IMG/VR virus record: IMGVR_UViG_3300035695_000015
Span: 1-36,652 of that record
Strand: one strand, 5' to 3'
Length of the DNA stretch: 36,652 nucleotides
Source of the DNA: a virus
In this document: piece after piece, positions 28,502 to 36,377 of the stretch
Position numbering within the stretch: the stretch's first letter is position 1
Layout: the number at the start of each line of letters is the position of its first letter
The notes under the pieces: generated by a model
What the model saw: the letters and a program-made list of their open reading frames with translations, nothing else
The model's database searches: none
Told to the model about the DNA's origin: nothing
Made by a program: the position numbers and the translations under genes

Positions 28502-28523
28502 AATGCTCCAATTTTCACCAATT

Positions 28524-28546
28524 TTATCCACAAAAACAGTGGATAA
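28524..28546. promoter_or_regulatory. Inverted pair of DnaA-box-like sequences
   Basis: TTATCCACA (28524-28532), a perfect DnaA-box consensus, faces its near inverse AGTGGATAA (28538-28546). The core repeat is TTATCCAC/GTGGATAA with a seven-base spacer. It lies in the leader of the late operon and can also form a hairpin in RNA. It could bind host DnaA or a phage protein. Confidence 0.5.
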
Positions 28547-28606
28547 GTTTGTGTACAACCATGTTGATAAACTGATAAAGCTATATAGTAGTTAGTACAC
28601 ACAAAC
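28547..28606. repeat. Inverted repeat in the late-operon leader
   Basis: GTTTGTGTAC (28547-28556) and GTACACACAAAC (28595-28606) are inverted copies with a two-base bulge. The repeat starts at the predicted late transcription start and could form a 5' stem in the leader RNA or an operator pair. Confidence 0.5.
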
Positions 28607-28640: not shown

Positions 28641-28693
28641 ACATGGTAAAAGATTTATATGAAAATTGTTGACATGGTAAATATACATGGTAA
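28641..28693 (+). promoter_or_regulatory. Three ACATGGTAA operators around the cassette promoter
   Basis: ACATGGTAA occurs at 28641-28649, 28672-28680 and 28685-28693. The second overlaps the -35 box and the third reaches the -10 box of the promoter at 28669-28696. The same nonamer is found at 34680-34688 (inverted) and 34960-34968. A protein bound here would block the cassette promoter. Confidence 0.65.
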
Positions 28694-28696
28694 TCT
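28669..28696 (+). promoter_or_regulatory. Promoter of the rightward mini-cassette
   Basis: TTGACA (28669-28674) is followed after 16 bases by an extended -10, TGG-TAATCT (TAATCT at 28691-28696). The first gene starts 30 bases further at 28727. The sequence TTGACATGGTAA is shared with the promoter at 34957. Confidence 0.68.
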
Positions 28697-28726
28697 ATCC
28701 TTATTACGAAGATAACCGGAGGCAAC

Positions 28727-28900
28727 ATGAAAGCGTCAAAACTGAAAGTTGGAATGATGATAAGACTTGGAAACAAAGATTTAATCGTGACATCAGTAAT
28801 CGAACATCAATATCTTGCATTTATCTACATGCTTGAAACTCTGGACGGCAAAACCAAATACGAATACATCCCTACTCGCGGAATTTACATCATCAAATAA
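28727..28900 (+). CDS. Cassette gene 1: small beta-rich protein (57 aa)
   Basis: The ATG at 28727 has a strong GGAGG site. The product is basic, with K-L-K-V-G-M-M-I-R-L-G-N-K-D and a C-terminal Y-I-P-T-R-G-I-Y-I-I-K, suggesting a small SH3-like beta barrel. It is the first gene behind the triple-operator promoter. No family recognised. Confidence 0.65.
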   Translation: MKASKLKVGMMIRLGNKDLIVTSVIEHQYLAFIYMLETLDGKTKYEYIPTRGIYIIK

Positions 28901-28959
28901 CAAGAAGCCCAATATGCTCATGGTTACAAAACGAGAATATCAATCTTTAAGGAGGAATC

Positions 28960-29058
28960 ATGATTTACCATTACTTCAGATGCAGTCGCTGCCACTCTGT
29001 CAGCAAAGGCAAATACTGCCCATTTTGTAAAAAAGGAGGATATGATAATGTCTTATAA
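28960..29058 (+). CDS. Cassette gene 2: 32-aa zinc ribbon microprotein
   Basis: A near-perfect AAGGAGGA precedes the ATG at 28960. The product has C-S-R-C (Cys 8 and 11) and C-P-F-C (Cys 20 and 23), enough for one zinc ribbon in only 32 residues, with a basic surface. The strong ribosome-binding site argues that this tiny frame is real; a competing frame through the same bases lacks one. Confidence 0.65.
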   Translation: MIYHYFRCSRCHSVSKGKYCPFCKKGGYDNVL

Positions 29059-29206
29059 AGGCCAGTTTGATGGATGGCACGGAGACGAAAATCTGTGTGA
29101 AGGCAGATGTGGACGAGGAAGCTGTTCGATGTGTGATGAACAGTACGATATGCGGTGTGACGAAGAATACGACCGCTGGAATGATCTTCAAGCCAATGGA
29201 GGATAA
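29048..29206 (+). CDS. Cassette gene 3: acidic Cys-rich microprotein (52 aa)
   Basis: ATG 29048 lies inside the end of the previous gene, with GGAGG upstream. The product is very acidic in its second half (Asp/Glu-rich D-E-E-Y-D-R-W) and has five Cys in C-x(3)-C-x(4)-C-x(2)-C-x(7)-C spacing. The charge pattern could mimic nucleic acid, as in some phage inhibitors, but this is speculation. Confidence 0.62.
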   Translation: MSYKGQFDGWHGDENLCEGRCGRGSCSMCDEQYDMRCDEEYDRWNDLQANGG

Positions 29207-29207
29207 C

Positions 29208-29399
29208 ATGGAAATCGTTAATGAATTAATGCCCTATCTGAACGGGATACTGGAAAAGAAGAAAAATTGCACAATAAGTTTGTATAAGGAAAACGAAGAC
29301 TTCATTCTGAATGTAAAAACAACATTCAAGAATAAAATAATCAAATCAAAAACCAGCTTCGGCCTTATCGTATGGCTTAGAGATTATCTTAAAAAATAA
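29208..29399 (+). CDS. Cassette gene 4: small hypothetical protein (63 aa)
   Basis: ATG 29208 has GGAGG directly upstream (GGAGGATAACATG). A longer frame from 29067 would overlap gene 3 and is less likely. The protein is basic with a helical start and a beta-like middle, ending W-L-R-D-Y-L-K-K. A strong terminator follows after six bases. Confidence 0.68.
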   Translation: MEIVNELMPYLNGILEKKKNCTISLYKENEDFILNVKTTFKNKIIKSKTSFGLIVWLRDYLKK

Positions 29400-29403
29400 A
29401 CAA

Positions 29404-29562
29404 TCAAGTGCCAGACTTATCCTCTGGCACTTTTCTTGCTTCTATCATTTTTTGCGTGACCCTCGAGATTCTTTTCAGGTGGTCTTTAAATTCTTGTAAA
29501 GTCATTCCAAACGATTCGCAAATGGACTTTATTTGCTCTATATCTTTTTCTTCTTGCTTCAT
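29404..29562 (-). CDS. Possible 52-aa helical protein, convergent with the cassette
   Basis: The minus-strand frame from ATG 29562 has AAGGG upstream and encodes a charged helical protein (K-Q-E-E-K-D-I-E-Q-I-K and L-K-R-I-S-R-V-T-Q-K). Its last codons lie inside the terminator stem of the cassette, which is possible but makes it less certain. Confidence 0.42.
   Translation of the reverse strand: MKQEEKDIEQIKSICESFGMTLQEFKDHLKRISRVTQKMIEARKVPEDKSGT
29406..29434 (+). terminator. Terminator of the rightward mini-cassette
   Basis: A perfect ten-pair stem AAGTGCCAGA/TCTGGCACTT (29406-29415 with 29423-29432) with a seven-base loop ends in a T run. It directly follows cassette gene 4. Confidence 0.85.
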
Positions 29563-29615: not shown

Positions 29616-29780
29616 ATGCGCAAAAAGACGGATAATAGAACAAAAATTATTCTAGTAGCGTTCGTAATTACTACATACATCTTCATGCGGTTTTGTATAA
29701 GGGACTTGCATTATACCGACACAAATCCTGAACAAATCGCATCACAACTCATCATTAACATTTTGTTGTCGAAGGAGTAG
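29616..29780 (+). CDS. Single-pass membrane protein (54 aa)
   Basis: The ATG at 29616 has CCGGAGGG upstream, and a TATAAT lies at 29586-29591, so it may have its own promoter. The product has a basic N terminus, one hydrophobic helix (about residues 11-27) and a C-terminal helix, an N-in topology seen in small holins and membrane effectors. Its end overlaps the 3' end of the leftward gene at 29755. Confidence 0.6.
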   Translation: MRKKTDNRTKIILVAFVITTYIFMRFCIRDLHYTDTNPEQIASQLIINILLSKE

Positions 29781-31693: not shown

Positions 31694-31961
31694 TTGCTGC
31701 CTCCTTAACTTCATTTTGTAAATTGTCTAATGCTGCCTGAGATTGATCCAATTTGGCAAGCTCACGCCTGAAATCCATATACCACGAGCAGAATTGAGCG
31801 GATATCCAGATAGCGCTTCCCTGCTCGATTAGTTTTGTACTGACCATGTCTGTCTCAAGGACAAGCATTAAATTACGAATATCCTCAAAAACTCCCTTAA
31901 TTCGATTAATCTGTTCGTCTTTCTCTTCTTGAGACATTTCAGACATCTTGACTTGTTTCAC
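31671..31961 (-). CDS. Hypothetical helical protein (96 aa), GTG start
   Basis: GTG at 31961 has AAGGAG six bases upstream. The protein is helical and acidic at the start (M-S-Q-E-E-K-D-E-Q) with several Trp/Phe in the middle and a coiled-coil end. It overlaps the HTH-YopX gene by 23 bases. No family recognised. Confidence 0.68.
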   Translation of the reverse strand: MKQVKMSEMSQEEKDEQINRIKGVFEDIRNLMLVLETDMVSTKLIEQGSAIWISAQFCSWYMDFRRELAKLDQSQAALDNLQNEVKEAASDSANLH

Positions 31962-32517
31962 TATGAACTCCTTCGAAAGAATTACCTATTATTGAAAAAT
32001 TTCCCTCTATTCCATCAGAAACATTGTTTTCTGAATAAATTTGATCCAGATTTTTAAAAGTAATCTGAGTGTTTTCATCATAAATCTCATGATTATGAAA
32101 AACCACAATATCATTTTCATACAAAAATGATCCATTAATGTCTTTTATAGAACTGCCTTGCATCAGGCATTTTTTATCAAAAGAAGTAAATGTCTTATTA
32201 ACATCATCTTTGTAGAAGATAATCTTTGTGTTAAATCTTGGCTTGAATATGAGAGATTTTACCTTGCACATTCCAAGTTTGTCGCTCCAAAAGCGATACA
32301 TCGGAAAATGCAATATTTCCTGATTTTTAATAATATCAAGATGAGATTTATTGCTTGCTTTTAACTTACCTTTTGAATCTTGTTCAAACCGTTTCTGTTT
32401 GTCGTAGGGAATCGCGCCTAACTTATTCCACCGATAAGCAATCTGTCTGGAAACGCCAATAGCAGTCGCTGCACAACACATCGTTCCGTAATATTCGCAG
32501 ACTTCTTCAAGCGTCAT
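31939..32517 (-). CDS. Cro-type HTH protein fused to a YopX-like domain
   Basis: Residues 1-55 match the Cro/YdaS-like fold: T-L-E-E-V-C-E-Y-Y-G-T, then A-T-A-I-G-V-S-R-Q-I-A-Y-R-W-N-K-L-G-A-I-P-Y and K-G-K-L-K-A-S. The C-terminal part (about 115-185) has the YopX pattern of L-M-Q-G-S-S-I-K-D-I-N-G-S-F-L-Y-E-N-D-I-V followed later by F-S-I-I-G-N-S-F-E. The stand-alone YopX protein at 36057-36377 shows the same blocks. This is the only clear transcription-regulator candidate. Its ATG overlaps the stop of the preceding gene. Confidence 0.8.
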   Translation of the reverse strand: MTLEEVCEYYGTMCCAATAIGVSRQIAYRWNKLGAIPYDKQKRFEQDSKGKLKASNKSHLDIIKNQEILHFPMYRFWSDKLGMCKVKSLIFKPRFNTKIIFYKDDVNKTFTSFDKKCLMQGSSIKDINGSFLYENDIVVFHNHEIYDENTQITFKNLDQIYSENNVSDGIEGNFSIIGNSFEGVHSETSQDV

Positions 32518-32872: not shown

Positions 32873-32939
32873 TTTTATTTTGTATCCAATTAATGCTAAA
32901 ATATATTCAACAACACCCGCTACGCCTCTTAATAATGCG

Positions 32940-32956
32940 AACCCGAGCGGGTTTTT
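32940..32956 (+). terminator. Terminator-like hairpin on the plus strand
   Basis: AACCC-GAGC-GGGTT is followed by a T run (TTTTT ends at 32956). An alternative longer stem pairs CCCGCT (32916-32921) with AGCGGG (32946-32951). No plus-strand gene precedes it, so it may block antisense transcription. Confidence 0.4.
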
Positions 32957-33307: not shown

Positions 33308-33389
33308 TGGAAAGGGCTGGATTCGAACCAGCGCGCCTTTTGGGAGCAAATTTACAGTCTGCCGGTTTCAGCCACTCACCCACCTTTTC
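33308..33389 (-). tRNA. tRNA-Tyr (anticodon GUA)
   Basis: The minus-strand RNA folds as a type II tRNA: acceptor GAAAAGG/CCTTTCC with one A-C mismatch, D arm with GAGTGGCTGAA loop, anticodon stem GCAGA/TTTGC with loop CTGTAAA, a variable arm, and a T arm GCTGG-TTCGAAT-CCAGC. The anticodon GTA reads tyrosine codons, and the long variable arm fits bacterial tRNA-Tyr. CCA is not encoded. It is the only tRNA noticed in the window. Confidence 0.93.
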
Positions 33390-34670: not shown

Positions 34671-34688
34671 ATTATACAATTACCATGT
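34671..34688 (-). promoter_or_regulatory. Leftward promoter -10 with ACATGGTAA operator
   Basis: On the minus strand ACATGGTAA (34680-34688) is followed by TTG and TATAAT (34671-34676). A second, degenerate site (CATGGTTA, 34664-34671) lies on the other side. The -35 region is poor. The promoter would drive the leftward regulatory and replication genes. Confidence 0.55.
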
Positions 34689-34956: not shown

Positions 34957-34985
34957 TTGACATGGTAAAACATCCTCGCTACAAT
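34957..34985 (+). promoter_or_regulatory. Early rightward promoter with ACATGGTAA operator
   Basis: TTGACA (34957-34962) and TACAAT (34980-34985) are separated by exactly 17 bases, close to the sigma70 consensus. ACATGGTAA (34960-34968) overlaps the -35 box and spacer, so a bound protein would block polymerase. It drives yqaJ and the long early operon. Confidence 0.82.
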
Positions 34986-35934: not shown

Positions 35935-36073
35935 ATTCGACCTTGAAAGAATCACGATAGAATTTAAAAAATCACAAATGCATGACCCTGTGATATTTAA
36001 AGGAACCGTTAAGGAATTTTTTGAACAGTCTGCTAAATTAATACTGGATAAAGAATATGAACCGAGAAATTAA
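35927..36073 (+). CDS. Small hypothetical protein (48 aa)
   Basis: I start it at ATG 35927, which has AAAGGAG seven bases upstream and overlaps the yqaJ stop; the frame is open upstream inside yqaJ but this start fits better. The product is acidic (N-E-F-D-L-E-R-I-T-I-E-F-K) and overlaps the yopX gene by 17 bases. No family recognised. Confidence 0.65.
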   Translation: MNEFDLERITIEFKKSQMHDPVIFKGTVKEFFEQSAKLILDKEYEPRN

Positions 36074-36377
36074 GTTTAGATATTTTTGCTCAAAAGATAA
36101 AAAAATGGTTTATTCGGATGAGTTTCCTGGATTTGAAGGATTCTTCTGTCATTTTGATAATCAATCAAATCCATTGCAGTTCTACACCGGATTAAAAGAC
36201 AAAAACGGAAAGGAGATTTATGACGGGGATATATTAAAAACACCATTTGGAATAATAATCATGTGTTATGAAGATCACATATACAGATGCGGGGTTAGTC
36301 AATCTTGTATTACGATGGAACATTTAGAAATAATAGGCAACATCCACGAAAATCCAGAATTATTGGAGAAACCATGA
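36057..36377 (+). CDS. YopX-family protein
   Basis: The 106-residue protein has the YopX hallmarks: N-terminal N-R-E-I-K-F-R-Y-F, the central L-Q-F-Y-T-G-L-K-D-K-N-G-K-E-I-Y-D-G-D-I-L and a C-terminal L-E-I-I-G-N-I-H-E-N-P-E-L-L. YopX proteins are common in phages of many bacteria, with unknown function. Its stop overlaps the DUF551 start (ATGA). A related domain is fused to an HTH at 31939-32517. Confidence 0.88.
   Translation: MNREIKFRYFCSKDKKMVYSDEFPGFEGFFCHFDNQSNPLQFYTGLKDKNGKEIYDGDILKTPFGIIIMCYEDHIYRCGVSQSCITMEHLEIIGNIHENPELLEKP

Follow-up and report, generated by a model that had tools for sequence, protein, structure and literature searches.

A cassette of four small genes opposite the terminase genes, a probable early and exchangeable takeover operon of a podophage-like virus

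We describe a cassette of four very short genes, g1 to g4, which runs against the replication and packaging genes of a podophage-like genome and is probably an early, accessory and swappable host-takeover operon of an apparently non-lysogenic phage. One promoter, four genes and one terminator lie antisense to the late genes, and the promoter shares its operator with the promoter of the recombination gene RecE; the timing of expression, the regulator and the host-directed activity of the products are inferred. A takeover or accessory role is favored because the operator is common to and covaries with that of RecE, because a strong promoter is almost universal at this site in related phages, because no integrase or S24 repressor was found in 23 related phage records, and because the cargo is exchanged between relatives.

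Results

The DNA analyzed, referred to here as the window, is the whole of a 36,652-base IMG/VR virus record. The genome is podophage-like, with genes for a terminase, a portal, a major head protein, an endolysin, an SSB, RecE and RecT as well as an O-like replication gene. In IMG/VR we found 46 relatives of its terminase, at 56-76% identity, whereas among GenBank phages none exceeded ~32% identity; a near cultured relative is therefore not known. The sole genome match, a contig of phage size binned with a Bacteroidetes MAG, was probably mis-binned and did not identify a host. The cassette (28669-29434, plus strand) is flanked by two leftward genes, the O-like gene and that for the small terminase, so that its orientation is opposite to that of the flanking replication and packaging genes. 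The leftward early region also holds a tRNA-Tyr (GTA) gene at 33308-33389 (minus strand). The features on which the argument depends are as follows, with loci of related phages designated by L numbers.

28641..28648, plus: upstream operator copy (ACATGGTAA), identified from sequence and chance expectation
28669..28696, plus: cassette promoter, TTGACA, 16-nt spacer and extended -10 TGG-TAATCT, overlapped by two operator copies
28727..28900, plus: g1, 57 aa; small family comprising the window, L003/L005 and L084
28960..29058, plus: g2, 32 aa; zinc-ribbon-like peptide, CxxC-x8-CxxC
29048..29206, plus: g3, 52 aa; new family, start backed by the family alignment
29208..29399, plus: g4, 63 aa; new family, predicted alpha-beta-beta-beta-alpha fold
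29406..29432, plus: hairpin terminator with a perfect 10-bp stem, usable in either direction
31939..32517, minus: p192, candidate operator-binding regulator with a Cro/YdaS-like HTH and a YopX-like C-terminal domain
34681..34688, minus: operator copy beside a leftward TATAAT promoter-like site, identified from sequence
34957..34985, plus: RecE operon promoter, TTGACATGGTAAA...TACAAT, containing the operator copy at 34960

The -35 box of the cassette promoter (TTGACA, 28669-28674) is perfect, and the -10 element at 28691-28696 is extended, but its hexamer is poor, with three of six positions matching; the promoter consequently scores 9 and was missed by a consensus scan. A preliminary description of this DNA had called the promoter strong, a term that the -35 box and extended -10 may justify and the hexamer does not. 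Copies of the operator ACATGGTA occur at 28641, 28672 and 28685 (plus strand), the latter two being 13 bp apart and overlapping the promoter, and the same promoter-operator arrangement is repeated in L005/L003/L084/L073. Elsewhere in the window there are two further exact sites, at 34681 (minus) and 34960 (plus); the total of five compares with an expectation of 0.86, and none of 100-200 shuffles yielded five. The operator is an imperfect palindrome, TTNAC-ATG-GTNAA, and takes the form GTTGACATGGTCAAC in one relative. At the other end of the unit, the terminator hairpin has a folding energy of -14.9 kcal/mol (z -4.8) and an imperfect U-tract. All four genes carry strong ribosome-binding sites, which had been described as near consensus, and AAGGAGG occurs on the plus strand of the window just twice, at the sites of g2 and g3. 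The triple-operator promoter, the four small plus-strand genes and the terminator were thus read correctly in the preliminary description. Its view of the unit as isolated is approximately correct but is weakened by a possible fifth rightward frame beyond the terminator (29616-29780, 54 aa), which has a GGAGG site and one likely transmembrane helix and for which no relatives were found. A second hairpin at 28523-28547 (TTATCCAC...GTGGATAA, with a DnaA-box-like sequence) lies between a 90-aa leftward gene and the cassette, and a similar hairpin is found at the matching place in L005.

Control of the cassette appears to be tied to that of recombination. Upstream of g3, 36 of 37 loci have, within 1,200 bp, a promoter that matches the consensus at 10 or more of 12 positions (0.26 expected per stretch); in 23 of the 37 the match is at least 11 of 12 (0.035 expected). 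In many of the related phages, the cassette promoter is overlapped by a sequence similar to that at the phage's own early rightward promoter, and it is this early promoter that drives RecE in the window and in L065, L069, L072, L073 and L080. The operator-like sequence itself differs from phage to phage, being ACATGGTAAC in L063 and L073, TTGACATGTACGCA in L080 and TTGACAAACTATAA in L069. Across 18 phages, the match between the operator-like sequences of the cassette and RecE promoters averaged 8.7 of 16 positions within a phage and 6.1 of 16 between phages; none of 10,000 permutations reached so high a value, with the same outcome when four near-duplicates were removed, although the figure is not an exact probability, since the phages are themselves related. 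On this sequence evidence, an operator shared by and covarying between the two promoters places the cassette under probable early-gene control, most likely through a regulator common to both. A candidate for that role is p192, which may act at the operator sites. It is conserved in L003/L005 at 41%, and a second YopX protein is encoded at 36057-36377 (plus strand).

Comparison of terminase neighborhoods indicates that the cassette occupies a fixed site with exchangeable contents. Wherever a terminase locus carried g3 or g4, the genes ran opposite to the terminase, and they were either adjacent or separated by one small gene of family F3 or F5. The genes upstream of them vary and include F2, F4, g1 plus g2, F10 and singletons; in L027 a gene for an LPD25 protein comes first in the unit. 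Several relatives (L009, L037/L045) have neither g3 nor g4 in the slot, and relatives of this kind can hold other small genes there behind a strong promoter. The slot of L010, for example, contains an F2-like gene, a small acidic gene and a gene for CsrA. CsrA genes are also found inside or close to the g3 units of L070, L075, L077, L079 and L080, immediately 3' of g4 in L070, L075 and L080, and the match in L075 reaches 82 bits; the CsrA profile (PF02599) had no match in the window. Optional cargo that varies at one fixed site is the pattern of an early takeover or accessory cassette.

The g3 family comprises 36 distinct sequences, including that of the window, under purifying selection (median dN/dS 0.13). 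Within the motif MxYxGMMDGWHGDE, positions M1, G9, W10 and D13 are invariant. The four cysteines (CxxxC..CxxC) are nearly so, being missing in L007 and L017, and since these two members keep the N-terminal motif without the cysteine cluster, the core of the protein is this motif rather than the metal site. The emphasis initially placed on cysteines therefore needs correction: GMMDGWxxDE outlasts them in both sequences. The protein is acidic and was modeled with a C-terminal helix, although overall model confidence was low (73). A resemblance to plectasin (E 0.01) spanned only 16 positions and was rejected, and tblastn searches with g3 relatives returned nothing from GenBank phages or plasmids.

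For g4 there are 33 distinct sequences, the window included, with a median dN/dS of 0.26 that again indicates purifying selection. The model is confident (pLDDT 92) and has an alpha-beta-beta-beta-alpha order. Its best matches among natural solved structures were T7 gp1.2 (Z 7.5), a dsRBD (6.5) and HPF/YfiA (5-6.3), all below the Z of 8 from which a common arrangement is expected. The alignment with T7 gp1.2 extends over 61 residues at 2.3 A, under that caution level, and no sequence relationship was detected, the hhalign probability being 0.2 against the single T7 sequence. The dsRBD (of DCL4) and HPF/YfiA have their elements in the same order as the g4 model, again at Z values under 8, and the Pfam dsRBD profile matched none of the 33 g4 members. 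Among viral models, the single match with E < 0.001 was an uncharacterized protein of an uncultured phage (E 8e-5, TM 0.92). We claim no kinship with AcrIIA4, for which Z is just 4.5; homology to cassette family F4 was tested and not found, and tblastn with g4 relatives gave nothing in GenBank phages.

The two upstream genes are more restricted. For g1 there are three distinct sequences, that is, the window and two relatives, with a dN/dS of 0.26 from one usable pair. No relative of g2 was found, even by tblastn against the neighborhoods of related terminases. Its knuckles, C8-x2-C11 and C20-x2-C23, agree with the 32-residue zinc ribbon of the preliminary description; a CxxC..CxxC pair in a frame of this size is expected 0.02 times per shuffled window, and matches to the zinc motifs of RecR and Spt4 were both sub-threshold. 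We regard g2 as a putative zinc-binding peptide.

Searches of Pfam, PHROGs, NCBIfam, PADLOC and PDB sequences assigned no significant family to any of g1 to g4, in keeping with the earlier impression that none is familiar. Close-relative searches of IMG/VR with the single small proteins also gave nothing. Conservation of g1, g3 and g4, the absence of which had been named as grounds for abandoning the cassette, emerged solely through tblastn on the neighborhoods of related terminases, and the family counts derive from iterated profiles, from running the g3 profile against IMG/VR once more and from scanning genome contigs. Family conservation and dN/dS values well below 1 identify g1, g3 and g4 as real genes. 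The proteins and the slot appear to be undescribed in the libraries searched, whereas early regions made up of small takeover genes are known as a kind.

Outside the cassette, an abiF RNA (Rfam RF03085) was detected at 32916-32952 (plus strand) with 37.1 bits against a cut-off of 37. The RNA scored 47.2 bits in L021, and 35.8 and 26.4 bits, both under the cut-off, in L007 and L037. No Abi_2 protein was found in the window phage or in L021, and the RNA of the window is possibly a solo, antitoxin-like decoy against a host AbiF.

Discussion

We suggest that host RNA polymerase would transcribe the cassette soon after injection, alongside the recombination operon, and that a Cro-like phage regulator, for which p192 is the candidate, would later turn it down. 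The very strong ribosome-binding sites could then produce a burst of small proteins, of which g3, acidic, probably zinc binding and with a C-terminal helix, and g4, a compact alpha-beta3-alpha domain, may bind a host factor or RNA and thereby switch host functions, possibly including defenses, to the benefit of the phage; g1 and g2 would represent variable cargo suited to particular hosts. The layout had been regarded from the outset as typical of host takeover or anti-defense, and the early-type operator, the promoter and the swappable cargo agree with this, while a direct activity of the four proteins is a prediction from sequence.

Anti-defense is one plausible form that such a function might take. 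A stricter version, in which the whole operon encodes anti-CRISPRs or serves a single anti-defense purpose, is a special case of takeover that we regard as possible but doubtful. Small unfamiliar proteins behind a strong early promoter are in its favor, as is the presence elsewhere in one relative, the phage of L028, of a Tad2-family gene (Thoeris anti-defense 2-like, PF11195, 65.6 bits; G010:1581-1847, plus strand, locus L101), which lies outside the cassette. Against it, no HTH match was obtained in g1 to g4, so that the unit has no aca-like gene, and PADLOC gave no match, which is weak evidence because PADLOC is a library of defense systems. A gene of L079 was also considered as Tad2 and fell below the curated cut-off.

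The main rival is a role in phage DNA replication or recombination, with the cassette supplying accessory partners of RecE/RecT or of the O-like initiator. Small zinc proteins can serve as adaptors in both processes, the cassette adjoins the O-like gene, and control in common with RecE fits this reading as well. We nevertheless consider it unlikely, since the cargo is variable, and some or all of it is missing in relatives that keep the terminase core, and since CsrA and LPD25 proteins travel as cargo in some of them.

It is improbable that the genes are a moron, inserted independently and expressed from a prophage to the benefit of the lysogen. The cassette does have its own promoter and terminator between genes of the opposite strand, as a moron should, and its presence is optional, but its operators are common to lytic early promoters, and neither an integrase (PF00589) nor an S24 repressor (PF00717) was found in the 23 phage records of the group, window included, whereas controls were detected. 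This result, which concerns known families and leaves room for a repressor of another kind, makes a lysogenic role unlikely. Finally, the notion that the small frames are spurious, which their extreme shortness and the lack of g2 relatives might encourage, is refuted for g1, g3 and g4 by family conservation and dN/dS far under 1 and persists for g2 alone; overall it has very little probability.

Takeover thus stays the preferred function, and its interest lies in a fixed, promoter-defined slot, in a clade without a near cultured relative, where small takeover or counter-defense genes would collect. Two conserved families with testable motifs, g3 and g4, are represented in no library searched, and the slot can be mined by position, with CsrA, the LPD25 protein and several unknown families as ready candidates.

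Among known systems, phage-encoded CsrA/RsmA is represented by the CsrA genes inside or close to the related cassettes of L010, L070, L075, L077, L079 and L080, although g3 and g4 are themselves not CsrA. A proposed effect of such phage proteins is to change host physiology and repress CRISPR immunity (PMC8450108; see also PMC7366521). A bolder proposal, which we offer tentatively, is that g3 and g4 are the core members of a novel class of immediate-early effectors, directed at a conserved host target (RNA, the ribosome or a defense enzyme), interchangeable with or complementary to phage CsrA in a promoter-conserved takeover slot, and widespread in uncultured podophages. A further parallel is offered by the early host-takeover regions of virulent phages such as T7 (genes 0.3-0.7 and gene 1.2). 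Early takeover regions of the T7 type encode small, unrelated and optional proteins from strong promoters early in infection, much as the cassette would; the cassette differs from them in lying antisense to the late genes and in sharing its operator with a recombination operon.
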